A DNA stretch of 33,530 nt. Origin: Lachnospiraceae bacterium (lineage in GTDB: Bacteria; Bacillota; Clostridia; Lachnospirales; Lachnospiraceae). Both the position numbers and the translations under genes were made by a program. Below the pieces are notes generated by a model. That model saw nothing but the letters and a program-made list of their open reading frames with translations. It did not search any database and had not been told where the DNA came from. This document shows positions 2,571 to 32,514 of this stretch, in pieces; the stretch's first letter is position 1, and each line of letters begins with the position of its first letter. The DNA is taken from assembly GCA_015057325.1 (NCBI GenBank), contig SVEQ01000019.1, positions 1 to 33,530 of the forward strand. Direction: 5' to 3'.

Positions 2571-2593
2571 CAAAAATTGTATTGGAGGTTAAG

Positions 2594-3991
2594 ATGACAA
2601 GTATTTCAGATACGATTGCAGCGATAGCGACAGGTATGAATCAGGGTGGTATTGGTGTTATACGTGTTAGTGGTAGTGAGGCTTTAGCTGCTGTAGATAA
2701 TATATTTGTTCCCAAGAAGAGTGGAAAAGAAGTTAAGAATCTTGCTTCTTACACTGCTGCTTACGGAAATGTGGTTAATCCAAAAGATAATTCAATAGTT
2801 GATGAAGTAATTGTCCTTGTTATGAAAGCACCTTCAACATATACAAGAGAAGATGTTGTAGAGATTGATTGTCATGGTGGAATGCAGGTAATGAAAGAGA
2901 TACTGCATCTTCTTATAAGTAACAACAATAATAAGGTTAGACTTGCAAGACCCGGTGAGTTTACGGAGAGAGCTTTTCTTAACGGACGTATTGATTTGTC
3001 TCAGGCGGAATCTGTTATGGATCTTATATCTGCCAAGAGTGAGATTGCTGCAAAGACGGCACTTTCACAGTTAAAAGGAAGTCTTAAGAATAAGATTACA
3101 GACATAAGAAAAGAGTTGATTCATAATATCGCATTTATCGAATCGGCACTTGATGACCCTGAACACTACAGTCTTGAAGGTTTTCCTGAAGAACTCAAAG
3201 GTATATTAAATGATAAGCTTGATGAGATAAATCACTTAATTCAAACCGCAGATAATGGAAAAATGATGAGAGAGGGAATACACACAGTTATTCTCGGAAA
3301 ACCAAACGCAGGTAAATCATCAATTCTTAATGTGCTCGCAGGTAAAGACAGAGCAATCGTTACAGACGTTGCGGGAACTACAAGAGACACGCTTGAGGAG
3401 TTTGTTTCCATTAACGGAATACCTCTTAATATAATTGATACCGCAGGAATTAGAGATACAGATGATATAGTTGAAAAGATTGGTGTTGATAAATCCATTA
3501 TGGAAATGGAGGAAGCTGACTTAATTCTTTATATTATTGACTCATCAGTTCCTCTTGATGAAAATGATAAGATGATAATGGAAAGAATTAAGGACCGTCA
3601 GGTTATCATTTTGTCTAACAAATCAGATTTGAATAATGTGGTAAATGAGCAGGATATTAGAAAGTACTTAGACCATAGAATGATAGAGATAAGTGCTAAG
3701 GAGCAGTCAGGATTTGAAGAGTTATATGAAGAGTTAAATCATTTGTTTTTCAATGATAAACTATCATATAATGATGAGATTTTCATTACTAATGAAAGAC
3801 ATAAAGCAGCACTTATTATTGCACAAAGTTCAATTAGTAATGCAATAAACAGTATTGATGACGGCATGCCTGAAGATTTCTATACAATAGATTTGATGTC
3901 TGCATATGAGCAGCTAGGATTTATTATTGGTGAATCCGTTGAAGATGATCTTGTGGATACAATATTTAGAGAGTTCTGTATGGGTAAGTGA
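2594..3991 (+). CDS. mnmE: MnmE (TrmE), tRNA wobble-uridine modification GTPase
   Basis: This is a 465-aa protein. With MnmG it forms the complex that adds carboxymethylaminomethyl to U34 of certain tRNAs, using GTP, FAD and a folate one-carbon donor. The N-terminal folate-binding domain starts DTIAAIATGMNQGGIGVIRVSG. The G domain carries P-loop GKPNAGKSS (about residue 235), switch AGTTRDT, DTAGIRD and NKSD (about 342). It ends FCMGK, the conserved C-terminal Cys motif. The ATG at 2594 is chosen because GGAGG lies at 2584-2588; an in-frame TTG at 2582 overlaps that site and is rejected. Its partner gene mnmG is 10.9 kb away, beyond a block on the other strand. Confidence 0.96.
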   Translation: MTSISDTIAAIATGMNQGGIGVIRVSGSEALAAVDNIFVPKKSGKEVKNLASYTAAYGNVVNPKDNSIVDEVIVLVMKAPSTYTREDVVEIDCHGGMQVMKEILHLLISNNNNKVRLARPGEFTERAFLNGRIDLSQAESVMDLISAKSEIAAKTALSQLKGSLKNKITDIRKELIHNIAFIESALDDPEHYSLEGFPEELKGILNDKLDEINHLIQTADNGKMMREGIHTVILGKPNAGKSSILNVLAGKDRAIVTDVAGTTRDTLEEFVSINGIPLNIIDTAGIRDTDDIVEKIGVDKSIMEMEEADLILYIIDSSVPLDENDKMIMERIKDRQVIILSNKSDLNNVVNEQDIRKYLDHRMIEISAKEQSGFEELYEELNHLFFNDKLSYNDEIFITNERHKAALIIAQSSISNAINSIDDGMPEDFYTIDLMSAYEQLGFIIGESVEDDLVDTIFREFCMGK

Positions 3992-4014: not shown

Positions 4015-4048
4015 AAAACTCCGGTATCTTTTCTGATACCGGAGTTTT
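4015..4048. terminator. Bidirectional terminator, copy 1 of a repeated hairpin
   Basis: A 14-bp perfect stem (4015-4028 with 4035-4048) with a 6-base loop is followed by a T run. It starts 24 bases after mnmE and also lies 42 bases past the stop of the minus-strand LRR pseudogene, so it can end both. The arm sequence AAAACTCCGGTA and its flank ATAAATTTC recur at 7146-7188. A small 5-bp hairpin (GGTGT/ACACC) follows at 4051-4063. Confidence 0.85.
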
Positions 4049-4090: not shown

Positions 4091-4844
4091 TTATTTGATC
4101 GTCACACCTTTGTTAAGTCCTGATATTACAAGAAGTTTTGAATATTTCTTCTTCTTTGATTTTGGAACTTTTGCAGTTACGTAAATATTAAGACCACTAA
4201 ATGCTTTACTTGAAACATTTTTAGGTATTATAATTGTCTTAAGACCGGTACAGTTTGAAAATGCACCCGAACTGATTTCAGTTGTATTCTTTCCGACATT
4301 TACCTTTTTAAGTTTCTTACATCTGCTAAATGCGTTGCTTCCTATCTTAGTAATATTTTCAGGAATTGATATACTTGAAAGATTTTTGCAATTAGCAAAT
4401 GCGTTATTTTCTATTTTGGTAAGGCTTGGTGGAAGGTTAACCTTTTTAAGGTTGTTACAATCACTAAATGCGTTGTCACCTATTTTTGTAATATTGCTTC
4501 CAACAGTAATACTTTCAACCTTTTTGTTGTCTTTAAATGCATTGTCGGCTATCTCTTTTGGAATACCTGTCTCTTCAAGTAATGATTCATCGATATTGCT
4601 GATTTCACAACTTGTTCCGACGCCCTCTGAAGTAGTTTCGCAAGAACTGAATTCATGCATATCCTGTAGAACTTGAACCCATTCCAAATACGTTAGGTGT
4701 TTTCAGAAGAATATTTAATCCATCCTGGGAACTTGTTGTTGTCATGTATGATAATGGATCGCCTTCATGTCCAAGCCATTGATCATCAATAACCTTTAAT
4801 TGAGGTATTTTATCATCAGTTATCTTTTTTGTATAAGTGCGTTG
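4091..4844 (-). pseudogene. Decayed BspA-type leucine-rich-repeat surface protein gene
   Basis: The intact part (4687 down to 4091) encodes 198 residues with four or five LRR_5/BspA repeats, recognisable as KIGDNAFSDCNNLKKVNLP-type units, and a basic C-terminal cap. It has only a TTG start, no ribosome binding site and no signal peptide. The DNA upstream on the same strand continues as coding-like sequence in another frame (4844 to 4653: TDDKIPQLKVIDDQWLGHE, then a Ser/Thr stretch, then TGA). That frame also has no start codon preceded by a Shine-Dalgarno. I therefore infer loss of the 5' end plus a frameshift between 4653 and about 4697. BspA-like proteins are normally exported adhesins. An alternative is that the LRR part is still translated from the TTG as a small protein. 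Confidence 0.65.
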
Positions 4845-4855
4845 TCAATAAAAGC

Positions 4856-4896
4856 TTCTATATAATTAATTGCATTTTTTTATAATTTTACTCAAA
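4856..4896 (-). promoter_or_regulatory. Shared 41-bp upstream element, copy A
   Basis: Aligned without gaps, 36 of 41 positions match 14809-14849, the region upstream of the giant-protein operon. On the minus strand the conserved core reads TTTGAGTAAAAT, an A run, GCAATTAA and TATATAGAA. It lies directly upstream of the decayed LRR gene, in the same relation as copy B to its operon. It is probably the promoter or operator left from the intact gene. No good sigma-A -35/-10 pair is evident. Confidence 0.6.
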
Positions 4897-4903
4897 AAAA
4901 AAT

Positions 4904-4937
4904 AGAAAGTTTTTCAAATATATTGAAATAACTTTCT
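4904..4937 (-). terminator. Terminator of the sigma-PrsW operon
   Basis: The stem AGAAAGTT (4904-4911) pairs with AACTTTCT (4930-4937), with further pairing of TTCAA/TTGAA inside. On the minus strand it is followed by a run of nine T (complement of 4894-4902). It lies 31 bases past the prsW stop. Confidence 0.75.
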
Positions 4938-4968
4938 ACTACAGTAAATAATAAAGTAAACAGGTATG

Positions 4969-5601
4969 TTAGTCTGCAAACAACTTGTATCTTTTATAGA
5001 AAATATAAAGCAACAAAGAGCAAAAAAGAGGTATGATAAACCCGATGCTTGCCGATATTTCTGTGCCCGATACAAGAAGATTATAAAGTCCATGGAATGT
5101 CATGGATAGAGACAGTGCACCGACAATTCCCGAAAAAGACAACGCTTTATAATGTCTTAATAAGTTAAATCCCATGGTAAGGGCTATCATACTTACCAAA
5201 TGCATAACACCTACGGCAAGTCCTCGAATAAGTATGTATGTGAGGCTTTCTGCACCTGTAGATAATATATGACAACAGTTTTCAAATGTTGCAAAGCCGG
5301 CACCGATTCCTGTTGCACCAAGTAGCAGTCCATCAGAAGAGGCCTCAAATAATAGGAGAGAAAAAAGTACGGGAATGAACTTCATAAGTTCCTCAACAAT
5401 CGGAGATATGAATATTGAAGTATCATTTGCACTCATGCCGGAAGCGGTCTTAATGAATCCGCTAATATAGGCGGACATAAGACAGACTACCATTCCGACA
5501 ACAAATGCCATTACAAAATGTCTTGCTTTGTCTTTAATAAAAAATAATGAAATTACTAAAGGTACTGCAATACAGATTAAAATGTTCTCAGCGTATATCA
5601 T
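4969..5601 (-). CDS. PrsW-family intramembrane metalloprotease
   Basis: This 210-aa, almost wholly hydrophobic protein has about seven or eight membrane segments. The PrsW motifs are present in order: EELMK at 70-74 (family EExxK), GFATFEN at 102-108, a helix with His134 (GVMHLV), and FHGLYN with His170 and Asn174. Family knowledge: B. subtilis PrsW makes the first cut in the anti-sigma factor RsiW, releasing SigW. Here the gene is last in an operon headed by a sigma factor and overlaps the preceding membrane-protein gene by 14 bases. The natural inference is that it cleaves a local anti-sigma factor. The substrate is not shown by sequence; the candidates are the 107-aa protein at 14459-14782 and the 32-aa protein at 6388-6486. 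Confidence 0.85.
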   Translation of the reverse strand: MIYAENILICIAVPLVISLFFIKDKARHFVMAFVVGMVVCLMSAYISGFIKTASGMSANDTSIFISPIVEELMKFIPVLFSLLLFEASSDGLLLGATGIGAGFATFENCCHILSTGAESLTYILIRGLAVGVMHLVSMIALTMGFNLLRHYKALSFSGIVGALSLSMTFHGLYNLLVSGTEISASIGFIIPLFCSLLLYIFYKRYKLFAD

Positions 5602-6385
5602 CTTTTGCTAACTCCTTTTTAAGAGCAATATACATAATTAATAGTGAAAGTGTGTTTAAGTCCATTGCGATGCTATAATAAAAATCTTCGCTTGCATATA
5701 ATATTAGAAGCGAACAGAAAAACAATGTAAATGAAATATATATGTAATTACCTCGTTCATTGTAAAATGATCGGATACATTTAATGATGAGCCATATTGC
5801 TATTGAAAACATTAATACATACGCAATTAAATCAGTAATATCGAAAGCCGTTCCATCCATGTTAAGTAAGGCAAATTCAATACCTGAAACAATAAAGCAA
5901 AGAGGTATAATTATTGCAATCTCAATCTTTTTCATGGATCTTGTTTCGAGTAGTCCCTTCATTAACAAATAAAGGAAATAAATATAAGGCAAACCAAAAA
6001 GTATGTCTTGTACCCATTCTCCTGACCACGCTATCCACAAAGCAATATTAGCACCGATAAATAAAACGGAAAAGATAAAAGCCATTGGAGAAAACCGTTT
6101 TTTCTTGTCATTTAATACTTCCAGTAAGGATGAAAAAAGTAAAAGTGTTGCACATTCTGCTATCTCGTCTGCCGCAATCGGTAGTCTTTCATCAGGTCTT
6201 AACAAACAGAAAACGATATAATATAAATCATCCAAAATATAACAAAACATTGCAAACGTGAAAAAGACAGGAAGAAGACCGTTACGTCCTCCCTGCATCA
6301 ATTTGACCGAAGCTGCAATAATAGGAATTAAAATTAATACCTGAATTGTTGTAATTACGATATCCTGAATTAAGAATGAATCCAT
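5588..6385 (-). CDS. Polytopic membrane protein of unknown function in the sigma operon
   Basis: This 265-aa protein has about seven or eight predicted transmembrane helices, short loops, and no soluble domain or catalytic motif that I recognise. Conserved-looking polar pairs sit within the membrane (FCYILDDLYYI around 47-57; ADEIAECATLL around 71-81; ASEDFYY near 231-237). Its start overlaps nothing; GGAGA lies just before the ATG inside the end of the 32-aa gene, and its 3' end overlaps prsW by 14 bases, so all are co-translated. Position suggests a sensor or partner for the sigma/PrsW pathway, but this is inference from context only. Confidence 0.8.
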   Translation of the reverse strand: MDSFLIQDIVITTIQVLILIPIIAASVKLMQGGRNGLLPVFFTFAMFCYILDDLYYIVFCLLRPDERLPIAADEIAECATLLLFSSLLEVLNDKKKRFSPMAFIFSVLFIGANIALWIAWSGEWVQDILFGLPYIYFLYLLMKGLLETRSMKKIEIAIIIPLCFIVSGIEFALLNMDGTAFDITDLIAYVLMFSIAIWLIIKCIRSFYNERGNYIYISFTLFFCSLLILYASEDFYYSIAMDLNTLSLLIMYIALKKELAKDDIR

Positions 6386-6387
6386 GA

Positions 6388-6486
6388 TTATTTCTCCGAC
6401 TGTTTTGTTTTCTTAATATGGAGACAAAGTTGAGTTACGGATATTCCAAGAATAAAAGCTAAAATACCAATTATTATATATTCCAT
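6388..6486 (-). CDS. 32-aa single-helix membrane protein between sigma and membrane-protein genes
   Basis: A short open frame reads MEYIIIGILAFILGISVTQL, then CLHIKKTKQSEK and a stop. It is one hydrophobic helix of about 20 residues followed by a basic tail, so N-out/C-in is expected. The ATG overlaps the last codons of the sigma gene (stop at 6474-6476), with GGGA and AAAGGA 5-12 bases upstream. The stop is 2 bases before the next ATG. It fills the only gap in an otherwise tightly packed operon, which supports it being real. Function is unknown; it could be a short regulatory peptide of the sigma, a PrsW substrate, or an accessory subunit of the neighbouring membrane protein. Confidence 0.6.
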   Translation of the reverse strand: MEYIIIGILAFILGISVTQLCLHIKKTKQSEK

Positions 6487-7043
6487 GTGTATCCCATCCT
6501 TTCAAGTTTATCTTTTAGAGCTGCTTTGCCTCTTGAAGTAATGTTATAGATTTTCTTAATGTTCATTTTCATGATTTTGCTGATTTCTTCTGCTGACATA
6601 TTTTCAAAGTAGATTAAATAAAGTACTTGTCTTGTGTCATAATCGAGATGATTAAGCGCGACATAAAGCTCTGAGTTTCTTTCGTTTGTTAATAGATTAG
6701 ATTCTGGAGATAAGACTTGTCCATTTTCTGATAGATTGTTTTCATCAAGTTCAATAAATGATGTTTTATTTTTTCTTAAAAACATTTTTGCCTGATTCTT
6801 AGCAATAGCGTAAAGCCAGGTTTTAAAGGAAATATTGTCTCGTTCTTTGTACTTTGCCGTGCCGGATGAAAGTATAGCAAAAGTATCCATCATAAGTTCT
6901 TCGGCATCATCTTCATTAAATACAATTCTGTTAAGAAACAAAAAGAGACTGTCTTTGTATTTTTCAAAAAGAATACGAAAAGAATCTTCATCGTTGTCCT
7001 TTAAATATCGAATATATAATTGTCCATCGGTATAGTCGCTCAT
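6474..7043 (-). CDS. ECF-like sigma-70 family RNA polymerase sigma factor
   Basis: This 189-aa sigma factor has region 2 at about residues 20-90 (DAEELMMDTFAIL, then SFKTWLYAIAKNQAKMFLRK) and region 4 at about 125-182 (LDYDTRQVLYLIYFENMSAEEISKIM, then an HTH-like NIKKIYNITSRGKAALKD). There is no region 1 or 3, which places it in the ECF class. The ATG at 7043 is preferred because GGGGA lies 10 bases upstream; an in-frame ATG at 7073 has no ribosome binding site. It heads the operon sigma, 32-aa peptide, membrane protein, PrsW. It has a sigma-A-like promoter at 7119-7146. No classical zinc-finger anti-sigma gene is next to it. Confidence 0.88.
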   Translation of the reverse strand: MSDYTDGQLYIRYLKDNDEDSFRILFEKYKDSLFLFLNRIVFNEDDAEELMMDTFAILSSGTAKYKERDNISFKTWLYAIAKNQAKMFLRKNKTSFIELDENNLSENGQVLSPESNLLTNERNSELYVALNHLDYDTRQVLYLIYFENMSAEEISKIMKMNIKKIYNITSRGKAALKDKLERMGYTWNI

Positions 7044-7118
7044 GTCAAAATATTCCCCATATATTATTGGCATATAAAAGTGTTAATCAGTTCAATCATA
7101 TACTCACTCGTAACATAA

Positions 7119-7146
7119 ATTATATCATTTTTTGTAAAAACTTCAA
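7119..7146 (-). promoter_or_regulatory. Sigma-A-type promoter of the sigma-PrsW operon
   Basis: On the minus strand TTGAAG (7141-7146) and a perfect TATAAT (7119-7124) are separated by 16 bases. The -35 abuts the hairpin at 7155-7188. This implies housekeeping expression of the sigma gene, not only read-through from the giant-protein operon. Confidence 0.6.
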
Positions 7147-7154
7147 TAAATTTC

Positions 7155-7188
7155 AAAACTCCGGTACCACGAATGATACCGGAGTTTT
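7155..7188. terminator. Terminator after the giant-protein gene, copy 2 of a repeated hairpin
   Basis: A 12-bp stem (7155-7166 with 7177-7188) has a 10-base loop. The arms and the flank ATAAATTTCAAAACTCCGG are the same as at 4009-4048; only the loop differs. It lies 42 bases past the stop of the 2402-aa gene on the minus strand, followed on the minus strand by GTTTTGAAATTTATT. A second small hairpin (GGGT/ACCC) sits at 7190-7201. Confidence 0.75.
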
Positions 7189-7230
7189 TGGGTTTTCACC
7201 CATTATATAAAGGATAGGATATAAGTTAAA

Positions 7231-10200
7231 TTATTTTGTAACAGTAACTTTAACTTTTTGCTTAACTCCATTCATACCAAATACATAAACGTAACATGAA
7301 CCTTTCTTAACTGCTTTGATTCTTCCCTTATCTGATACTGTTGCAATAGTATCATTTGTAGAGAAGTATCTGATTGGAGAAGCATGTTCTTTTCCAAGAG
7401 CTTTTTCATTTTTGTTTGCTTTGACTACCTTAGTTTTTAACTTCAAGCTCTTTCCTGCTTTCAAACTTACATCGGTTTTATTAACCTTAATAAGTTTTAT
7501 ATCGGTATACTGTTTGTTGGCTTTTCCAACACCATGAAGATCTAATGTCTCACCAATGTATACCTTTTCATTGTCAATCATCTTAAATGCTTTAACAACA
7601 ACCTTGTACATATGCTTTCCTTCAACTTTTTTGCCGGAAATCTTTTTAAACTCGTATTTGGTTGTCTTAGCATTTACACTCTTTTGTAATTCGAGGTCAA
7701 TACCACATTGCTGTGCAAAAATGTCGTATCCTTCTGCTTCTTTAAGTTTACCCCATGTAACCTTAACGTTCTTTGGATTAACATATATTCTTGCACCGAT
7801 ATTAAGAGTGCTGTTATTACTGTTTGTCTGTGGTGACGGATCAATATTAAAGTTGCTTACTGCTTCAAATCCATTATATAAATCGTTTTCTGCAAATACT
7901 GCTTTGACAGTATAAGAACCCTTGTTATGAGGAACTTTTTCACTGTATTCTGCAGTTTCATCATTAGCAGGTTTATATAAGATGTTTACAGTAGTTGAAC
8001 CGTTAGTTGCGCTTTCTGTATTGACAACTAATTGTTCTCCGACAGTAATATCGTTAACTGTAATGGATCCGTTACCTGTTCCCTTCTTAACAGTTAAAAT
8101 ATGTTTTACAGGTGCTTTTATTTGTTTGCCGTCATTGTCAACAATCTTTGCTGTGATTAAGAAATCACCTGTTTTGGTAACTGTAAGAGCGGAATCTGTC
8201 AATGTTCCCACACCGGTTCCCTGATCATTTATAAGTTCGTATAAAGGTGTACCAATGCTTGTATCAAGACTAAATAATGTTGAAACATCAATAGGCTTGC
8301 CCTCAAATGTCATCTCACTGCTTGTTGGCAGTTTTTCAAGATACAATGTTAATACATAAACCTTATCAAGACTTGGTAATGTATATGACAGAGCTTCTTT
8401 TCCGGAAGCAACTGCAGTTTCTGTATTGCTTGCAACATCTTTAAGTCCCCATTTAGCTACAACATATTCTTTTGGAATAACTGCGTTAAATGATACAGGA
8501 ATGTATGCAACATAGTCGTTTCCTGACTTAAGTGTCTGCTTACCGCACGCTGCTGTAATAACATTAGGTATTTCATCACCGTTTTCATCAACAGCCTTGA
8601 ATGTAAGATTGTTAGTCTTGTAACCTGCAAGTACAACTCTAATCTTAAGATCGCTTTGTACATTGGTTATTGTGTAAGAATCGAGACCACCCTGAAGAAC
8701 AGTGTATTTCTGATCATCTGTATATAATCTCCACTCTTTTATGATAACAACATCAGGAATAGTTGCTGTAAGTTTGATTGTGCTTGCTTTCTTTGCTTTG
8801 CCGTCATTTCCGGTTCCTTCAATATTGAATGAACATCCAACAATGGATTCGTCAGAAATAAACTGTGCATCAACGGTATAGAATGCTTCTTTCTCGAACT
8901 CAGCATATACGTAGATGTTGTCATCTATTGTAAGTTCGTATTCATTACCTGAGTAATTGCTTCCGTCTGCATTTTCTATTGTTTCAAGAGTTCCACCGTT
9001 TTTCGAAATCTTCCATGCTTTTACAACATATCCGTTATCAGGAGTTGCCGTAAGTACAACCTTTTTGCCAAACGGTACAGGTTCAGGCGAAACAATAGAA
9101 GATGTTTTCGTGTTACCGTTAATATAGTTAGCGCTTAAGTTTCCGTGTTCTCCGGCACCGTATGAAAGTTCATATTCAGTCATACCAAACTCAGCATGGA
9201 CAATAATATCTTTTTCAAGTGAATCAATAATAATCTTTTCGTCAACTAATTGATAATCGGTTCCTGCTGTTAAGTCGTTACCGGCAAGGTCTGTAATTGT
9301 CCACTTGGTAACAGTAAATCCTTCATCAGGGAATGCCAAAAGGCTTACATTAGTACCCTTATAGATTCCTGTTCCGGATATAAATCCAACCTGATTATCA
9401 CCATAGTATCCTTGAAGGGAACCGTTAATTGATGAATCATAAGTTACTGAGCATACGTCACTTACAATAGTAAATGTTCCGCTCTTAAACTTAACATCGT
9501 ATCTGTTTTGGAATTGTGCAGCCTTAGCCTTGTTTTCGTTTGTACTGTCATTAAATGCAGGAGTTACGCTGTATATTCCTTCAGCGGAATTTTCATCAAG
9601 CGTCGGCTCTGTAACATATTTGAATATGCTTTCAAGCGGGTAATTTGTTTTATCATCAGGAGTAATTGCCGGCTTAGTTTCGTCATTTTTATTAATGATA
9701 ATTAAGTCATTTAGACTTGGAACTTTGTCGGCAGTATTTTCTGCTGATATATTAAGTTTTGTAGGAGCAGTTACAAGTAACGGACGTTTATTAACATTCA
9801 TCCTTGTTTTTGTAAACTTTGAAGGTGCTGTAGTACTATCATTTATCTCTGCAAAAAATGTGTGTTCACCTGCAATGGTTGGATAATAAGTATGGTTGGT
9901 TCCAATATCCTTTTTCTGCCAAACGCCGTCATCATTTTTATACTGTACATAATATTTAACCGTTGTTCCGTTTGGAAGAGGTTCTTCCGTTATCTTGCCA
10001 TTGGCATCCTTGGTTCCTTTAAATGTTTCAAGTGTTACGGAATCGCCGTATGTTGAATCGTTGGCATGTACAACATAAATCGATTCATCAGTTCTTGATG
10101 TTGCATAATATACTGCTTTTCCGGATGATGCCTTGGTTGTGTCACTTCCCGAATACTCAGCGGTAATAGTGTATATACCTTCGTTTTCAGGAGTCCAAGT

Positions 10201-13200
10201 TGTTGTTGCATTACCGTTTGCATCAACGGTTGCAGGTATGGTCTTTAAATCTCCGGTTAGAGAATTATAAATGGAAATAACTGCACCGTTACCAAAAGCA
10301 GCAAGCGTACTGTTTTTCTTAACCTTAATGGTTATAGTAGTTTCGTCACCCGGGATAATGTTATCCGTATAAGTTGTATAATTTTTATCAATTTGTACAA
10401 TCTCTCCGGGAATAACGGTTGTTGTGCCGTCTTCGTTTTTGTACTGTCCCGGTTCATCAGAATGAATAGCAATTTCTGTAACCGTAACCGGATTGGTGCT
10501 TTCTTTTATTGTATAATACGTATCATCTTCTTTTTGTGTGTTATTTGCCACTACTTTTTTGTAGATATTATATGTTTTCTTTGGATTTACTGTTTCGTCT
10601 GTATATTCATAAACCTGATAAGTAGTAGTAACATTATTAACAGTAACGGTTTTTGTTATATATTCCTTTTCGGTAATTTCAACATCTTCTTTTTCGTTAG
10701 TCTTTTGATAAAATTCATCAAAATTAAGATTTTTACCATCTATTGTTACATATCTTTCTTTGTGTGTCACTTCTGATGCACTATCGGCAGTTTTCGCTGT
10801 TTCATTAACGTTTTTAAGAATATAGAACTTGCCGTTATTTAAATTACGGTAAACAAATGGTATGGTATTATTTGATGAAGTATCTTCATTATTATATATT
10901 TCATATTTTGCACTTGTTGTACCGATTGTTATTTCAACAATTTTGTTTTCTTTCGTTGTTCCGGTACCCTCAACTCGTTCCTTCGTATCCGAATATCCGG
11001 TATTCTGGCTTGTTGCAGAGTTAAGAACCGTAACGTTTGTTGTTGTATTGGCTTTACCAACATTTAATACTCCAACGTCACTGTAGGTATAAGTTCTGAC
11101 ACCGTTGTGAATCTCCGCAACGACACATCTAAAGTAGTCACCGTCCATATCTTTCGTAACGTTTTCTATTTTGAGTGTTGAGGACTTATAAGTGTTACCT
11201 ACAGAATCAACGTAATCAAATTCCTTGGCATTTTTTTCGTTCCTTTTTTCATTTGGTTCTTCGAAGTTTTTCCAATTAGATTTATTTGGATCCTTTCTTT
11301 GCCATGTGTAAGAAAGACCTGTCTTTGTTCCTACGGATGGCGAAGCTTCGATTTTGAATGTTGCATCATCGCCAACTACGACGTTTTGTTCTTTGGTTAC
11401 ATCAACAACAGTTGGTGAAGCTTCTCTGCTTAATGTTGTAGCAGTTACAGGTTCCGTAAATTCCGAAACAAGTTCTGTAGTTCCATCTCTTCCTATAGAA
11501 CGAAGTGCAAGACTGTAAGTCGTTGATGGATCCAAACCATCGAAAGTATATGTTGTCGTATCTCCCGGAACGCTATCCAAAAAGCTGTAAGGATTGTTAG
11601 TTATTCCGTCGTCAAAATACTGATAAATTTCGAATTTGTCAGCAACCTTACCGCCAAGCTCCCATCCAACAGTTATTGAATGATCGGTAACTGTATCAAT
11701 AGAGAGATTACGTGGTGGACTTGGAGGCATCTGTACATTTGATACAACGTATCCGACAACCGGAACAGTTGTATCGCCAAGTTTTGCTGACCATGTTGCA
11801 AATGTTGCCTCAAAACTATATGGACATTCTGTTTTTGGTGGATTTGCAATCGATCCGCCTTTGGTTACACCCTCGTAACTGATTACGGAAGAACCGCCTC
11901 CCCATCCGCCTCCGGCACTAACACCGCAGCCATATTCAACATCGACAATTCCTAACGGATCGGATGCTTCTCCGGCAACACCGAGAGATAATTCGAATTC
12001 ATTAAAGTAGCTTTGACTTGCTGTCGATGTTGTCTGTGAGTTTATCTCAAACTGGGTAAATGATGACCCGGAATATGTATTTGAAATGGTTTTTGTCTCC
12101 CCAGCTACGCACTCATTAAGACCGGAAGTTCCACCTGGATATGTGTCAGGTCTACCTGGTTGGTTGCTTATAACATCAGATGTAATCATTTTGTCTTTGA
12201 GTGCAGGGTCATTTTCAGCTATGCTGTTATATACGTCAACATCCATTAAGCAATATTTTGGATCTTCCTGAATACCTATTACCATGTCATATTGCTTGCT
12301 TCCGTCAGCAGGAGTTACTGTATAGTGGTACAGCGTAACGGGAGTTCTGTAAAGAACTACCATGTTAGTGTCTGTGGCAACAAAGTTATATACAAATTCA
12401 TTGGTAAGTTCATTTTCATATTCCCATTCCCACTCATGAGTAAATGTTGCCTCAACTGTGAACTTCAATGCCTGAGTACCCGCTGCAAAATTAACATATG
12501 CTCCGGCTTTTGCCTTCTGTGTTGTTGATGTAGCTCCACCACTACCTTTTACTATACCGAAAGATGTTTCTCCGACAGCATCATAATAGTCATCATAAAT
12601 ATCTTCAAAGTAAGGTGCTGCCTGAAGGACGGCCTGAACCTCAACATTTGAGTGTGTAAATTCCTTGCTCTTGTATGTAAATGTATCTGTATCCTGATCG
12701 ATATCTACAGCTGCAACCGATGCACAAGGTTTGTTATTTTTATGCTGGTGATATGAAAGATAATCACATCCTTTCATGGATGTATAGTAATCACCGGCTT
12801 GGAGTATTTCATTTTCTGTTTTGGTTTTCTTTCCGGCTATATAAGCGCGGTAGAAGTAATATGAAAGAACAGTTTGTTTATATCCGGTAGTAAACATAAC
12901 CTGTTCGATACCAAGCTCATTAGAATCAAAATTACCGGCTACACATTGGTCAACCCATGTGTTTGTAATTATCCATCCGGCAATACCGTTATCTGCTTCA
13001 TCGCAAACGGCAGGAGTGTGATCTGCCTGCCACTCACCGTCTCCGTTCAATTTGTAGAAAGTTCCGCTTAAGAATAATTCATCTGCCGCATTCCTTCCGT
13101 TAACAGCGGCACAAGTGATAGCCGGAGCTCCTTGGATGGCATCATTTTTGTAGTAACCATCTTTTGTAAAATTATTCCAATTTACAATTTGTGTAGTTCC

Positions 13201-14439
13201 AAGAGATAATTTACCTACTTCTACGTCGTTCTCTTTGTAACGAGGATTATATGCAAGTGTTGTGACGGAATACGTATCTCTTTCAATTTTATCAAGGTCT
13301 TCACCGGTTGTATTATTAGCGGTTTGTTTGCTGTAAAGACCGGCTATTATTATTTCAGGAAAACCGTTATTGTCAATATCTCCCGTAGTTATTGATGCTG
13401 TACGGACATATCCAAAATTATCATCTTTAACTTTTCCGATTGTTGCTCCATTAAGAACAACTTCAGTTGAATCTGATGATTTTGTTAACACGTTTTGTCT
13501 TTCAAGGTTTAAATCAGATGCACCTTTGTAAAAACCAAATACCGAACTTCTTTCGGTTAATTCTTTACCATCTTTATCGTTAACAATGTCAGGATATGAA
13601 CCCACAACAAGAAGATCTTCATTTCCGTCACGGTCTATATCATCTGCAGTCATAGAAACCTGAATGGTAGATCTTGCTGTGCTGTCGTCTGCTTTCATCT
13701 TAGTAGAAAGCTCTGCTCCAGTTCTTCCCATAAGATTCTTGAGTGGAAGTTCTTTTTTTACGGAAAGGTTTGAACCGTCAAGAATAGCTATATAAGGACT
13801 GTTTGCCTTTGGGACATAAACAGCGATTTCGTCTTTGCCGTCACCGTTAAAGTCACCTGTAGCTATTGTAAAATAGTTTTTATATGCCCACTGAGGGATA
13901 GCATCCAACCAATCGGCATCATCCTTTCTGTCATTTTTTAATGAGAAGGTTGCTGTTCTTGGATTTTCAGAGTTTGCTGCGTTATAACGTGCAACAACGA
14001 GTTTGCTTTCTGTGTTGTAATCACAACCTACCATGGCGATCATATTGTCATGACCGGTTCCGTAGGGGTCATACCCTTTTGTTACAACATAACGATAATT
14101 GCGTGTTCCGTTGTTAATCGTATTTTTAACGCTGCTTGCTTTGCTAATATCTACGCCTTCAATAGCGTCTGAATTATCGAAATTGTAGGCTTTTGCATTA
14201 ACGTTATCACCTTGTCTCCAAATAAATGCCTCAGACTTTGTATTAAAAGTCTGTGTTCCTTTACCGTATGGGTTTTCACCATCGTTTGCATTAAATGATG
14301 AAGGAGTTGATAAGTCAAAACCAAACTGGTCTTTTGCTGATACATCCTTCATTCTTCCCGGCCCTACACCTGAGAAAACGCCTACTATCATGGCTGTAAC
14401 AAGTGCAAGTGCTAAGACTTTTTTTGTTCGCTTTTTCAT
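7231..14439 (-). CDS. Giant secreted multidomain protein (FG-GAP, FnIII, Ig-like, InlB-type repeats, Big_2)
   Basis: This 2402-aa protein begins with a signal peptide (MKKRTKKVLALALVTAMIVG, cleavage probably after VSA, residue 35). In order I see: FG-GAP/VCBS calcium-loop repeats near residues 195, 270 and 356 (GDFNGDGKDE, DDIDRDGNED, GDIDNNGFPE); an unassigned aromatic-rich region around 600-780; a Ser/Thr- then Gly-rich stretch at about 780-855; FnIII at about 905-1005; an Ig-like domain at 1010-1125; a Thr-rich stretch with a Big_3_5-like domain to about 1500; InlB-type bacterial repeats near 1660, 1755 and 1855 (GSLQGYY, GNLSANY, PDEGFTVTKW); an FnIII-like unit near 2215-2310; and a Big_2-like C-terminal domain (2305-2402). 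There is no LPXTG, so anchoring is unknown. The gene starts 19 bases after the 107-aa membrane-protein gene, with AGGGAGGA before the ATG. An adhesin, matrix or toxin-like role are all possible. Confidence 0.9.
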   Translation of the reverse strand: MKKRTKKVLALALVTAMIVGVFSGVGPGRMKDVSAKDQFGFDLSTPSSFNANDGENPYGKGTQTFNTKSEAFIWRQGDNVNAKAYNFDNSDAIEGVDISKASSVKNTINNGTRNYRYVVTKGYDPYGTGHDNMIAMVGCDYNTESKLVVARYNAANSENPRTATFSLKNDRKDDADWLDAIPQWAYKNYFTIATGDFNGDGKDEIAVYVPKANSPYIAILDGSNLSVKKELPLKNLMGRTGAELSTKMKADDSTARSTIQVSMTADDIDRDGNEDLLVVGSYPDIVNDKDGKELTERSSVFGFYKGASDLNLERQNVLTKSSDSTEVVLNGATIGKVKDDNFGYVRTASITTGDIDNNGFPEIIIAGLYSKQTANNTTGEDLDKIERDTYSVTTLAYNPRYKENDVEVGKLSLGTTQIVNWNNFTKDGYYKNDAIQGAPAITCAAVNGRNAADELFLSGTFYKLNGDGEWQADHTPAVCDEADNGIAGWIITNTWVDQCVAGNFDSNELGIEQVMFTTGYKQTVLSYYFYRAYIAGKKTKTENEILQAGDYYTSMKGCDYLSYHQHKNNKPCASVAAVDIDQDTDTFTYKSKEFTHSNVEVQAVLQAAPYFEDIYDDYYDAVGETSFGIVKGSGGATSTTQKAKAGAYVNFAAGTQALKFTVEATFTHEWEWEYENELTNEFVYNFVATDTNMVVLYRTPVTLYHYTVTPADGSKQYDMVIGIQEDPKYCLMDVDVYNSIAENDPALKDKMITSDVISNQPGRPDTYPGGTSGLNECVAGETKTISNTYSGSSFTQFEINSQTTSTASQSYFNEFELSLGVAGEASDPLGIVDVEYGCGVSAGGGWGGGSSVISYEGVTKGGSIANPPKTECPYSFEATFATWSAKLGDTTVPVVGYVVSNVQMPPSPPRNLSIDTVTDHSITVGWELGGKVADKFEIYQYFDDGITNNPYSFLDSVPGDTTTYTFDGLDPSTTYSLALRSIGRDGTTELVSEFTEPVTATTLSREASPTVVDVTKEQNVVVGDDATFKIEASPSVGTKTGLSYTWQRKDPNKSNWKNFEEPNEKRNEKNAKEFDYVDSVGNTYKSSTLKIENVTKDMDGDYFRCVVAEIHNGVRTYTYSDVGVLNVGKANTTTNVTVLNSATSQNTGYSDTKERVEGTGTTKENKIVEITIGTTSAKYEIYNNEDTSSNNTIPFVYRNLNNGKFYILKNVNETAKTADSASEVTHKERYVTIDGKNLNFDEFYQKTNEKEDVEITEKEYITKTVTVNNVTTTYQVYEYTDETVNPKKTYNIYKKVVANNTQKEDDTYYTIKESTNPVTVTEIAIHSDEPGQYKNEDGTTTVIPGEIVQIDKNYTTYTDNIIPGDETTITIKVKKNSTLAAFGNGAVISIYNSLTGDLKTIPATVDANGNATTTWTPENEGIYTITAEYSGSDTTKASSGKAVYYATSRTDESIYVVHANDSTYGDSVTLETFKGTKDANGKITEEPLPNGTTVKYYVQYKNDDGVWQKKDIGTNHTYYPTIAGEHTFFAEINDSTTAPSKFTKTRMNVNKRPLLVTAPTKLNISAENTADKVPSLNDLIIINKNDETKPAITPDDKTNYPLESIFKYVTEPTLDENSAEGIYSVTPAFNDSTNENKAKAAQFQNRYDVKFKSGTFTIVSDVCSVTYDSSINGSLQGYYGDNQVGFISGTGIYKGTNVSLLAFPDEGFTVTKWTITDLAGNDLTAGTDYQLVDEKIIIDSLEKDIIVHAEFGMTEYELSYGAGEHGNLSANYINGNTKTSSIVSPEPVPFGKKVVLTATPDNGYVVKAWKISKNGGTLETIENADGSNYSGNEYELTIDDNIYVYAEFEKEAFYTVDAQFISDESIVGCSFNIEGTGNDGKAKKASTIKLTATIPDVVIIKEWRLYTDDQKYTVLQGGLDSYTITNVQSDLKIRVVLAGYKTNNLTFKAVDENGDEIPNVITAACGKQTLKSGNDYVAYIPVSFNAVIPKEYVVAKWGLKDVASNTETAVASGKEALSYTLPSLDKVYVLTLYLEKLPTSSEMTFEGKPIDVSTLFSLDTSIGTPLYELINDQGTGVGTLTDSALTVTKTGDFLITAKIVDNDGKQIKAPVKHILTVKKGTGNGSITVNDITVGEQLVVNTESATNGSTTVNILYKPANDETAEYSEKVPHNKGSYTVKAVFAENDLYNGFEAVSNFNIDPSPQTNSNNSTLNIGARIYVNPKNVKVTWGKLKEAEGYDIFAQQCGIDLELQKSVNAKTTKYEFKKISGKKVEGKHMYKVVVKAFKMIDNEKVYIGETLDLHGVGKANKQYTDIKLIKVNKTDVSLKAGKSLKLKTKVVKANKNEKALGKEHASPIRYFSTNDTIATVSDKGRIKAVKKGSCYVYVFGMNGVKQKVKVTVTK

Positions 14440-14458
14440 AAAATCCTCCCTTGTTTCT

Positions 14459-14782
14459 TTATGATTTACTAACAGAATCGTTTGTACTGTTTCTGTTTTT
14501 ATAATGTTTTATCAATACTGTCACAATGACACCTAAAATAAATGCTATAACTGCAGTGAGTACGTAGCTTCCAATATCTGCAAATAACAGAAAGGAGCCG
14601 TATACTGATTGCGAGTTATCAACCGAAGTATTAGCAAATACGCTGAAGGCGCCAAGCAACAAAAATGTAGTGAGACATGTGGTTGCTGATAGTATTTTGG
14701 TTATTCGCTGTTCATGCTTCTTTTTAATTAGTTTGCCACGCTTTTTGATTTCGCTTAAGGCATCATCCGTGTTGTATTTCAT
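14459..14782 (-). CDS. 107-aa two-helix membrane protein, candidate anti-sigma factor
   Basis: A short cytosolic, strongly basic N-terminus (MKYNTDDALSEIKKRGKLIK) is followed by a hydrophobic helix at about 29-50, a roughly 17-residue exposed Ser/Asn-rich loop, a second helix at about 67-92 and a polar tail. There is no zinc-binding HxxxCxxC motif. The layout resembles the small membrane anti-sigma proteins found beside ECF genes in Clostridia, but I cannot prove homology by eye. The ATG at 14782 follows AGGAGG by 8 bases; the GTG at 14791 overlaps that site. It is co-transcribed with the giant secreted protein and lies downstream of the 41-bp element. With the nearby PrsW it is the best candidate substrate of the protease. 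Confidence 0.75.
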   Translation of the reverse strand: MKYNTDDALSEIKKRGKLIKKKHEQRITKILSATTCLTTFLLLGAFSVFANTSVDNSQSVYGSFLLFADIGSYVLTAVIAFILGVIVTVLIKHYKNRNSTNDSVSKS

Positions 14783-14808
14783 TAGTTCCACCTCCTATCA
14801 TTTTGTCT

Positions 14809-14849
14809 TTCTATATACTTAATTGCACTTTTTTTGGATTTTACTCAAA
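14809..14849 (-). promoter_or_regulatory. Shared 41-bp upstream element, copy B
   Basis: This matches 4856-4896 at 36 of 41 positions without gaps. It ends 26 bases before the ATG of the 107-aa gene. On the minus strand it carries TTTGAGTAAAAT, a run of seven A, GCAATTAA and TATATAGAA. I propose it is the promoter/operator of the giant-protein operon and possibly the target of the sigma factor at 6474-7043. A TTGAGT/CAATTA pair at 17-base spacing exists, but the -10 is a poor match to sigma-A. Confidence 0.6.
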
Positions 14850-14861
14850 GTTTTCTAAAAA

Positions 14862-14892
14862 TTGTGCATTTTTTTTTGATTTATGTTATACT
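14862..14892 (+). promoter_or_regulatory. Promoter of mnmG-rsmG
   Basis: An extended -10 TGTTATACT ends at 14892, with TTGTGC at 14862-14867 (19-base spacer, on the long side). It is 45 bases before the mnmG ATG and back to back with the giant-protein operon's upstream element. Confidence 0.5.
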
Positions 14893-14936
14893 CTGCTTTA
14901 GTTTATTTGATTTATTTTTATAGAAGGAATCGGACG

Positions 14937-16847
14937 ATGAATAATTTAGAAGAAACTTATGATGCCGTTGTAATCGGTGCCGGACATGCAGGCTGCGAGG
15001 CGGCTCTTGCACTTGCAAGAATGGGAATTGAGACAATTATATTTACCGTAAGCATGGACAGCGTTGCTATGATGCCATGTAATCCTAATATTGGAGGGTC
15101 TTCAAAGGGACACTTGGTAAGAGAGATTGATGCATTAGGCGGTGAGATGGGTAAGAATATTGATAAAACCTATATTCAGTCTAAGATGCTTAATCGTTCA
15201 AAGGGACCTGCCGTTCATTCGCTTCGTGCGCAAGCAGACAAGGTTGAGTATACCAAGCAGATGAGAATTACTATGCAAAATACGGATCATTTAACGCTTA
15301 GACAGGCAGAGGTTTCGGAGATTATTGTTGATGATTCAACTTCGAAAAAAAGAGTCCGCGGTGTGCGTACTAAGTCGGGAGCAACGTATTATGCAAAGGC
15401 TGTTATTATATGTACCGGCGTGTATCTTAATGCGCGTTGCATATACGGTGATGTCGTTAATCATACAGGACCAAATGGTCTTTCAGCGGCAACATTTCTT
15501 TCCGATTCACTTGTAAAAAGCGGAATACCTGTTAGACGTTTTAAGACAGGAACGCCTGCAAGAATTGATAAGAGAAGTATTGATTTTTCCAAGATGGAAG
15601 AGCAGTTTGGTGATGAGAAGATTACGCCGTTTTCATTTACCAATAAAGCAGAGGATATTGCCAGAGAGCAGATAAGCTGCTGGCTTACATATACCAATGA
15701 AACCACACATGATATAATCCGTGCAAACATTGACCGTTCGCCGCTTTTTTCGGGTGCGATTGAAGGAACGGGACCGAGATATTGTCCGTCGATTGAAGAC
15801 AAGGTTATGAAGTTTGCGGATAAGAACAGACATCAGGTATTTATTGAGCCGGAAGGTGAGTTTACGAATGAGATGTACATTGGTGGAATGAGTTCATCAC
15901 TTCCTGAAGATGTTCAGTATGCAATGTATCGAAGTGTTCCCGGACTTGAGAATGCCAAGATTGTTAGGAATGCTTATGCAATAGAGTATGATTGTATTAG
16001 TGCGTTGATGCTTAAGCACACGTTGGAGTTTAAAGACGTGGACGGTCTGTACAGTGCGGGTCAGATGAATGGAAGCTCCGGTTATGAAGAGGCCGGTGCA
16101 CAGGGAATTATGGCAGGTATAAATGCTGCAAGAAAGCTTCAGGGAAAAGAAGAGGTTGTTCTTGACAGGTCTCAGGCATATATCGGAGTTTTAATTGATG
16201 ATCTTGTTACAAAGGAAACAAAAGAGCCTTATCGTATGATGACTTCACGTGCAGAGTACCGTTTGTTATTAAGACAGGATAATGCGGATTTGCGTCTTAC
16301 AGATATCGGGCATGATATTGGATTGATATCCGATGAGAGATATGATGCATTTTGTAAGAAGAGAGAACTTATTAACAGCGAGGTTAACCGACTTTCCGAA
16401 ACAATGGTTGGTGGTAACAAGAAGGTTCAGGCATTTCTTGAGGCGCATGACAGTACAACCTTAAAGACTGCCGTTTCACTTGCAGATATTATCAAGCGTC
16501 CGGAACTTGATTATGAAAGCATAGAAGAGATAGATGCAGAAAGAGTTGAGATTAAAGAAACTTCTCTTTATGCTGAGAATATTTCTGAGGATGTTATCAA
16601 CCAGATTAATATAGAAATCAAATACGATGGATATATTAAGAGACAGCAATCTCAGGTAGAACACTTCAAGAAGTTGGAGGATAAGAAGATTCCTGCTAGT
16701 CTTGATTACAATGATGTCAGCAATCTTCGTAAGGAAGCAAGACAGAAGTTAAATGATATAAGACCGGAGAATATCGGACAGGCATCACGTATATCGGGTG
16801 TTTCGCCGGCTGATATATCTGTATTACTTATTTATTTGAATTCGTGA
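14937..16847 (+). CDS. mnmG: MnmG (GidA), tRNA uridine-5-carboxymethylaminomethyl modification enzyme
   Basis: This 636-aa FAD enzyme is the partner of MnmE in U34 modification. It has the FAD-binding Rossmann motif [10 protein letters not shown] (14-23), the GidA signature [29 protein letters not shown]-type [11 protein letters not shown], a conserved [16 protein letters not shown], and the C-terminal helical domain ending [18 protein letters not shown]. Length is normal for the family. The ATG at 14937 is preceded by AGAAGGA; a longer frame from 14883 adds 18 hydrophobic residues without a ribosome binding site and is rejected. It is followed by rsmG after 53 bases. Confidence 0.97.
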
Positions 16848-18642: not shown

Positions 18643-19215
18643 CTAGTTAGCTCTCATTCTTCTTACATTGTCATTGCTGTCATTGTAATAAGTGTCAAGT
18701 GTTTTGTTGATTTCTTCAAGTATTTCCATTGTTTCTTTAGAAGTACTTGATGAATTGCCGTTTAACTGAACAAGAAGTTTGGAAATGCGGTCTGAACTGT
18801 TAAGCATTTTGTTATTGTTTTCTGTAGATTTTTTGATAAGAATCTTTGTACACAATTTCTGCTGCTCAATAAGTTCGGCATTTAATCTCTGGTTTTCTTC
18901 TTTCAATTGCATGAGCTCATTAACCAAAGCTTCGTTCTGTTTCTTGTTGCTGGCTTCTTCTCTTTTTGCTACAGAGTAGATTCCCTTCTCAACTTTGACA
19001 AGTTCCGTCTGCTTGTCCATTGAAGCTGATGAAAGTTCATCTACCATTTTGACTATGCTGTCAACTAAAAAGTAAGTGTCTGCAAGAGCAATGATTCCGA
19101 AAACTATAATAAGCTGAATCATTTGCGGTGCGTTCAATATAAGGTATAGCATTATAAGAATAGAAGCAACAAAACCAACAGCGCTGAATGTAAGATTTGA
19201 TTTCTTGGTTCTCAT
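18643..19215 (-). CDS. Two-helix membrane protein with long coiled coil, unknown function
   Basis: This 190-aa protein has two hydrophobic segments (about 10-28 and 32-52) joined by a short turn, then a long cytosolic coiled coil at about 60-115 (LKEENQRLNAELIEQQKL) and a second helical stretch to 175 (EILEEINKTLDTYY). The ATG at 19215 follows GGGGG by about 7 bases; the upstream in-frame extension runs into the tRNA-Arg gene and is rejected. No family is recognised. The topology is like membrane-anchored scaffold proteins. Its position between parAB-linked genes suggests expression with them but does not define a role. Confidence 0.75.
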   Translation of the reverse strand: MRTKKSNLTFSAVGFVASILIMLYLILNAPQMIQLIIVFGIIALADTYFLVDSIVKMVDELSSASMDKQTELVKVEKGIYSVAKREEASNKKQNEALVNELMQLKEENQRLNAELIEQQKLCTKILIKKSTENNNKMLNSSDRISKLLVQLNGNSSSTSKETMEILEEINKTLDTYYNDSNDNVRRMRAN

Positions 19216-19253
19216 TGTAATACCCCCAATCATTTTTATGTAATATAGAAAAA

Positions 19254-19325
19254 TGCACCCGGCGGGAATCGAACCCACAACTAATCTTTAGGAGAGACTT
19301 GTTATATCCATTTAACTACGGGTAC
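19254..19325 (-). tRNA. tRNA-Arg (anticodon CCU)
   Basis: On the minus strand the 72 bases fold as a full cloverleaf. The acceptor GTACCCG pairs with CGGGTGC (one G-U), followed by discriminator A with no encoded CCA. The D arm is GTTA/TAAC, the anticodon stem AGTCT/AGATT and the anticodon loop CTCCTAA with CCT at the anticodon. The T arm is GTGGG-TTCGATT-CCCGC. It reads AGG codons. It lies between DUF3881 and the coiled-coil membrane gene, in the same direction. Confidence 0.92.
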
Positions 19326-24166: not shown

Positions 24167-24195
24167 ATGACAATAGAAAATGATTGTGTTATACT
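24167..24195 (+). promoter_or_regulatory. Promoter of the Peripla_BP-GGDEF gene
   Basis: ATGACA (24167-24172), a 17-base spacer and TATACT (24190-24195) preceded by TG (extended -10). It is 57 bases before the ATG and divergent from the pyrC promoter. Confidence 0.65.
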
Positions 24196-24252
24196 TATAG
24201 GCGATATGTGGCTTTGTTTAGTTATGATTATGTGAAAGAGGAGATTTGTTCA

Positions 24253-31882: not shown

Positions 31883-32514
31883 AGAATCATCTCCTTCTAT
31901 ATTAAGTGCAAAAGCACATCCCTGCTATTAGTATATATATATTAACATATTTTTTTCAGATGTAAAGAACTTCATTAAAAATACATAATTTTGAACATTT
32001 TTACATATTTTCACAGTAAATGTACAAACTTTCAAAAATTTCCTTAAATTTCCCCAAGAAAATACATTGATGTTCATAATTTGCGGATGTATATTCGATT
32101 TAAGGGTTTCGAAGCTCAGGACGTGGAAAACGGCTACCATGTTCGATGTTATACACTCAATCAAATATGCACCGATAAGGAAATGGCCGAATAACAAAAA
32201 AAGGAGGATTAATTTATTAATAAAATCAACAATCATAATAAGTGAAAGCATAAGACCTTTTCCTGATAAAATATAGAATAACAGTAGTTAGGGCATTATG
32301 TGAAAAAATCCGGGATTGCCATGGTGATAGTTTCTTATTCACTCCGTAAATATCATTATAAATCATTGTTCTTTTCTGAACGCATACAAATGGTTTGCCA
32401 TGGCAATACGGATTCTCTCTATATATAATATGCAAATATGTAGTATATACTACTTGTCTGAAGTGTAATTATAGTGATACAATTAGTGCAAGTATCAGGC
32501 AAGGAGGGAAAGGA
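31883..32514. other. AT-rich intergenic region of about 630 bp
   Basis: No convincing gene is seen. Between mecA and about 32080 the DNA is very AT-rich. At 32087-32194 (plus) a 35-codon open frame, MYIRFKGFEAQDVENGYHVR and onward, has balanced, coding-like codon use but no ribosome binding site, so it may be a gene fragment. A good AAGGAGG at 32201-32207 is not followed by a start codon, which also suggests decay. ATTGCCATGG at 32315-32324 is repeated inverted at 32398-32407. Confidence 0.5.
32454..32483 (+). promoter_or_regulatory. Promoter of the 52-aa gene
   Basis: TTGTCT (32454-32459), an 18-base spacer and TACAAT (32478-32483) lie 31 bases before the ATG at 32515. Confidence 0.5.

Follow-up and report, generated by a model that had tools for sequence, protein, structure and literature searches.

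The genes mnmE (2582-3991, plus strand) and mnmG (14883-16847, plus strand) are separated, in the 33,530-nucleotide stretch of Lachnospiraceae DNA analysed here (the window), by an island of about 10.8 kb in which all genes lie on the minus strand. The locus raises the question of what these genes do together. The initial annotation had described a sigma factor, a PrsW-type protease, membrane proteins and a giant exported protein between mnmE and mnmG, and gene calls together with domain matches confirmed this island.

Organization of the island

The genes for the sigma factor (6474-7073), a 32-aa one-helix peptide (6388-6486), a 265-aa multi-TM protein (5588-6385) and a 210-aa PrsW-type intramembrane protease (4969-5601), all on the minus strand, touch or overlap, which suggests that the four form a single operon. 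The giant, an exported protein of 2402 aa taken as the effector (7231-14439, minus strand), is preceded by the gene of a 107-aa 2-TM protein, TM2b (14459-14782, minus strand). A promoter-like element (element A, 14816-14849, minus strand) lies 5' of this 2-TM/giant unit, with a matrix score of 30.8 and a perfect match in the whole-genome search. Element B (4863-4896, minus strand; matrix score 27.9, also a perfect match) lies 5' of a decayed unit, in which part of another exported protein, one with LRR repeats, is left (4091-4829, minus strand; LRR_5 at 4091-4687, 2.8e-36). The same stem-loop was found 3' of both surface genes: it is terminator-like behind the giant gene (7155-7188, minus strand), and its counterpart at 4015-4048 was reported on the plus strand, the stem being symmetrical. 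The parts list of the initial annotation held for the genes, but had missed the copies of the element and the paired stem-loops.

A weak sigma-70-type promoter match lies 5' of the sigma gene (7119-7146, minus strand). Matches of this type were set aside, as 32 were found against 42.9 expected from shuffles, that is, fewer than expected. No Rfam family reached its gathering score in the island, and the whole window yielded one tRNA only. Elsewhere in the window, a GGDEF domain is fused to a periplasmic-binding-like domain (24184-26559, plus strand), and two reading frames beside housekeeping genes (18643-19278 and 31928-32251, both minus strand) gave no Pfam match at E 0.01.

The sigma factor of 199 aa matches Sigma70_r2 (1.1e-11, residues 35-103), Sigma70_r4_2 (1.7e-9, residues 135-186) and TIGR02937 (1.4e-23). 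It contains the sigma2 and sigma4 domains only, which is the domain composition of the ECF type. The PrsW protein matches PF13367 (2.6e-17) with 63.5 bits against a cut-off of 23.5. Residues E70, E71, K74, F103, E107, H134, H170 and N174 are invariant in 15 PrsWs from cassettes of this type, and all of these except N174 make up what we take to be the E-E-x-x-K, F-x-x-x-E and histidine motifs of PrsW proteases. The source genome also has a gene for a peptidase M50 (site-2 protease), which is of little weight because all 14 control genomes have one. The giant possesses an N-terminal hydrophobic stretch and matches fn3, FG-GAP, Flg_new_2 and Big_2 above cut-off; no LPXTG-like motif was found in its last 60 residues.

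A recurring gene set and its membrane proteins

Queries with the window proteins found the multi-TM protein in 9 and the 2-TM protein in 13 of 200 genomes of the same family, often side by side. At E <= 1e-20, profile matches to the multi-TM family and to the TM2 family fell in one and the same set of 11 among the 200 genomes; most of those 11 had supplied sequences for the profiles, A1 and A3, with G122 and G187 contributing to neither and the G187 locus being nearly identical to that of G218. The second sample comprised the best 80 of 378 PrsW relatives drawn from 84,980 species genomes, and its counts concern cassette-type PrsWs, not PrsWs at large, the alignment (A2) having been made from cassette PrsWs. 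Among these best 80 of 378, the multi-TM gene lies 5' of PrsW in every locus and the sigma gene in 79, the contig of the remaining one starting 916 bases before PrsW. The TM2 gene is downstream in 67 of the same 80 loci and divergent in 5. The contigs of six of the other eight end within 1.2 kb of PrsW, and no TM2 gene was found behind PrsW in L104 (within 2.7 kb) or L153 (within 8 kb). Co-occurrence across Lachnospiraceae, by which the initial annotation proposed to judge the island, is thus borne out by the 11 shared genomes and by the gene order kept around PrsW. These comparisons support the view that the cassette genes travel together, as a set that recurs mostly in gut and rumen bacteria; judging by record titles, most of the 80 loci belong to assembled genomes from Lachnospiraceae and from other Clostridia, with ruminants as a frequent source. 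In four loci titled Fibrobacter (L124, L141, L174 and L177), and likewise in L139, the cassette has its TM2 gene divergent from sigma. No description of such a cassette was seen among the papers listed by full-text searches of an open-licence library, from which most subscription papers are missing.

A second cassette subtype is distinguished by a PrsW 32-38% identical to that of the window. Subtype II was assigned from PrsW identity, except in G183 C41 and C55, where the TM2 sequence alone was used, and both subtypes occur within one genome in G060, G088 and G183.

TM2b of the window starts with the ATG at 14782, giving 107 aa; a GTG at 14791 falls within the apparent ribosome-binding site. 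The protein (family profile E 1.7e-29) was aligned with 24 relatives, and conservation was read over 132 distinct TM2 sequences. In these, the N-terminus is basic with an E-I-x-x-R motif and is followed by the first helix and a Y-G-S loop, and the second helix is best conserved (G-Y-V ... F-x-L-G ... T), with basic residues at its end. The 32-aa peptide beside sigma matches positions 68-92 of the TM2 profile (at 6409-6483, E 1.3e-5), corresponding to the second helix alone, and is named mini TM2a here. The membrane peptide and the 107-aa protein, originally listed as separate parts, both exist, but by this match they are members of one family. A full-length TM2 lies between the sigma and multi-TM genes in 38 of the 80 loci by profile, which corrects the earlier proposal that the anti-sigma is encoded with the effector and not with the sigma. 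In addition, a one-helix match occupies this place in 8 of the 80 by profile (16 loci by eye), and the profile found no TM2 adjoining sigma in 34 of the 80, about half of which have a one-helix peptide by eye.

None of the window proteins scored above cut-off with known anti-sigma models in Pfam and NCBIfam, and 24 TM2 and 65 multi-TM relatives gave weak scattered matches only. TM2 matches to Yip1, PspB, DUF4179 and the like were set aside, being scattered and below cut-off (DUF4179 once, E 0.0074). By analogy with known systems, TM2 is a candidate for both the anti-sigma factor and the substrate of PrsW.

The multi-TM protein of the window matches no Pfam family above cut-off. Larger proteins likewise match its profile at their N-terminus, and five of the six scanned are hybrid histidine kinases. 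Profile comparison of the multi-TM proteins of both subtypes with the kinase membrane domain yielded an E value of 2.4e-17 over 216 columns, and with subtype I only a weak 1.5e-4 over 60 columns, values to be read with the caveat that membrane proteins may align through composition alone. The motif D-L/Y-Y-W-x-x-Y is common to the multi-TM proteins and the kinase domains. At the level of these alignments, the multi-TM protein resembles the membrane domains of hybrid histidine kinases, and we propose it as the sensor. Hybrid histidine kinases with an N-terminal membrane domain of this appearance are encoded in L212, L213, L214, L215 and L216.

The promoter-like element and its output units

The element consists of GTGAGTAAAA, N11 and TGCAATTAA and lies 5' of TM2b genes, where TGCAATTAA or a near form follows 21 bases after GTGAGTAAAA. 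Half of the loci served for training of the matrix and the remainder for test, with a threshold of 15 bits chosen by the analyst. At 15 bits, 56 of the 79 sites tested have the element 5' of the TM2b/effector unit. The test is not fully independent, because the starting string had been picked after every site had been viewed and both halves contain related loci. Some of the scores in the comparison of subtypes below also depend on the matrix, since the contig of L098 is that of G004 and L142, L161 and L175 are apparent duplicates of G060 C53, G128 C20 and G130. The controls on the same 79 stretches gave no match at 15 bits, either reversed (0/79) or on the opposite strand (0/79). At the same threshold the element was absent 5' of the multi-TM gene (0/72) and the PrsW gene (0/73), and stood 5' of the sigma gene in just one of 69 cases. 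Of the 69 matches across 912,573 bases, 57 lie no more than 260 bases 5' of a TM2 gene. The other 12 include a scar in G004, where element A runs into a giant remnant, and matches close before sigma in L174 and L177. Six of the 23 test sites lacking the element at 15 bits belong to TM2 copies placed directly before sigma, before PrsW or just behind PrsW.

Where TM2b diverges from sigma, the element stays with TM2b (L124, L139, L141 and L174), and it also lies 5' of TM2b in G128 C10 and C30, with no sigma in the stretches examined. The distribution supports the assignment of the element to the TM2-effector unit. The initial annotation would have been refuted by a giant operon independent of the sigma; at the sequence level no such independence was seen, and the 2-TM/giant unit has its own cassette-linked promoter-like element. 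The element was detected at 11 of 12 subtype-I TM2b sites versus none of the nine subtype-II sites scanned (15 bits), several of the latter having TGTAnCTATATA in common by eye. That the promoter seems to change along with the subtype is, among the comparative data, the strongest indication of the sigma reading the element.

Early criteria for ECF sigma factors, as given in the part of the source available, included a promoter with AAC (-35) and CGT (-10) and positive autoregulation, and later criteria were narrowed (PMC8103513). AAC and CGT are absent at the usual ECF places from GTGAGTAAAA-N11-TGCAATTAA, the element that the sigma is predicted to read. The sigma gene mostly lacks the element, and therefore no sign of autoregulation was seen in most loci.

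In the 3.05-Mb source genome the element has three perfect sites, two of them inside the island, and no site with one or two mismatches; eight sites have three mismatches, and the reversed pattern gave six in all. The third perfect site (G000:C8:33854-33882; L097:13852-13885, minus strand) lies 5' of a dCMP deaminase gene, which is followed by genes for a FecR-domain protein and a 912-aa exported-looking protein. Its counterpart in G004 scores 13.4, with the second box changed, and the matches in other listed same-genus genomes cover mainly the gene itself. The site may be either a member of the regulon or a scar.

The region 3' of TM2b encodes, in many loci, a long protein whose N-terminus is hydrophobic and whose length can exceed 2500 aa. 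The effector was defined as the longest frame 3' of TM2b, giving 99 rows, and several of the short frames among them are possibly not the genuine gene; the domain scan covered 10 of the 99, and clustering took those of at least 400 aa. The window giant could be aligned with other effectors over the first 900-1000 residues or so at about 21-27% identity. The group to which it belongs has 15 members, including some duplicates; many further long effectors have no link to this group. Nine loci have an effector of 233-275 aa with a trypsin-type end by eye, and Trypsin_2 was found in both of those scanned (L111 and L148). A 315-aa effector occurs in L102, L120 and L144, with an S66 LD-carboxypeptidase domain in L102, the one scanned. 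Neither the window giant nor any of the 10 scanned effectors showed a toxin domain. Units of TM2 and effector are also present on the sigma-free stretches G128 C10 and C30, the C30 effector having 268 aa. Only these two count as sigma-free units, because G183 C41 has a partial sigma match (45 bits) near it and G183 C55 has no long effector.

The trypsin-like and LD-carboxypeptidase effectors rule out giant surface proteins as the only output. Of the sigma/PrsW switch with giant-protein output that had been put forward, the core idea is supported by the co-occurrence and by the element, whereas the giant is not its invariable output. By these comparisons, the effector is exchanged between loci.

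Proposed switch, alternatives and insertion site

We propose, at slightly better than an even chance, that the island encodes a narrow ECF sigma switch. The sigma factor, mini TM2a, the multi-TM protein and PrsW would be produced from one packed operon, as their overlapping and touching genes indicate, and the sigma would read GTGAGTAAAA-N11-TGCAATTAA before the units of TM2b and exported effector, as the comparative data suggest. The small 2-TM protein would tether the sigma at the membrane. The multi-TM protein, a putative stand-alone relative of histidine-kinase membrane domains, would sense a signal and license PrsW, which would cut the 2-TM protein; a general site-2 protease would then complete the release of sigma, by analogy with RsiW. 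As every output unit would make new 2-TM protein, each effector would bring its own brake. We assign these roles because PrsW acts on RsiW, SigM has a two-protein membrane anti-sigma, and the cassette offers no other candidate. A broader claim, which we hold more tentatively and at somewhat less than even chance, is that this is an undescribed modular ECF system, combining a kinase-type sensor domain, a co-encoded PrsW, a duplicated 2-TM anti-sigma with a brake for each unit and a one-helix brake beside sigma, a tiny exchangeable exported regulon, and parallel versions with different promoters in one genome.

Clostridial SigI-RsgI systems have a dedicated sigma for large extracellular proteins, with RsgI bearing its own outer sensor domain; compared by description, the sensor candidate of the island is a separate multi-TM protein. 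In Bacillus subtilis, the anti-sigma RsiW is cut by PrsW and RasP, and 89 genes are strictly SigW-dependent (PMC3498285). The SigW-RsiW-PrsW-RasP system shares an ECF-type sigma and a PrsW protease with the island. The island differs from the SigW system as that source describes it: it showed no RsiW-like protein, its PrsW gene shares the sigma operon with the multi-TM gene, and the output is very narrow, three perfect sites against 89 strictly dependent genes. The SigM-YhdL-YhdK system of B. subtilis uses more than one membrane protein as its anti-sigma, and these are encoded together with the sigma (PMC6827917). It was likened to the island by description; no PrsW is tied to it in the available part of the source, whereas the small protein of the island is also encoded with each effector.

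TM2b could have another role, helping to export or anchor the effector, with the multi-TM or another protein as the anti-sigma on which PrsW acts. Its gene is indeed directly 5' of the effector gene, including in G128 C10 and C30, where no sigma is nearby, and the only other membrane protein kept in all 80 loci is the multi-TM protein. However, the partners of TM2b are of unrelated kinds, among them the 315-aa LD-carboxypeptidase with no obvious signal peptide, and TM2 also lies beside sigma without an effector, even as a single helix; we therefore consider this role unlikely, though worth keeping in mind. It is less probable still that PrsW processes the exported protein or TM2b for export or release, with the sigma only setting the amount made. 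For PrsW domains that are fused to toxins, a role in the processing of exported proteins has been put forward, and in these PrsW-linked polymorphic toxins, as in the island, a PrsW is found beside large exported proteins (PMC3482391). Yet the PrsW of the island is a separate protein of 210 aa and sits in the sigma operon, outside the effector unit; moreover, the effectors vary widely in kind and size, and no PrsW-effector fusion is present among those listed.

If the sigma switch proposed above is correct, bacteria of the gut and rumen would possess a defined path leading from an external signal to exported proteins, with a promoter readable from sequence, so that the proteins under its control could be listed. 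It would also be an ECF system whose sensor is built from the membrane domain that hybrid histidine kinases use and whose brake is encoded with each output. Being small and self-contained, its parts could be put to use as a switch for anaerobes.

The close relatives allow part of the history of the island to be read. Among 25 same-genus genomes a close sigma was found in G004 only, 73% identical and with the same cassette at the same site. The unit behind PrsW is intact in G004, with a 2-TM gene and a 1484-aa protein, and the window has a remnant there. Of the G004 homologue, only residues 796-853 (97% identical), 890-932 (93%) and part of the LRR stretch are left in this remnant, spread over two frames, so the initial description of a decayed surface gene was right. 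The stretch 5' of sigma in G004 has element A joined to about the last 20 codons of a window-type giant and to its stem-loop. The two remnants are opposite in the two genomes, and therefore the ancestor probably had both output units, each lineage having lost a different one; the initial annotation had missed these opposite losses.

A true mnmE was identified in 19 of 26 same-genus genomes, the others giving related GTPases only, and mnmG starts within about 0.45 kb of mnmE in 12 of the 19. The island occupies this site in G000 and G004; the gap holds other genes in G020 and G011 and measures about 0.8 kb in G025 and some kb in G001, and no mnmG was seen in G022. Such variety would fit chance neighbours gathered at an insertion-prone spot. 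This explanation is highly improbable and was rejected, as the same gene order occurs at other places in other genomes and the co-occurrence counts contradict it. In the L208, L209 set, the mnmE-mnmG gap of G020 carries a 318-aa protein, and that of G011 a protein which, by the look of its sequence, is presumably sodium/proton antiporter-like.
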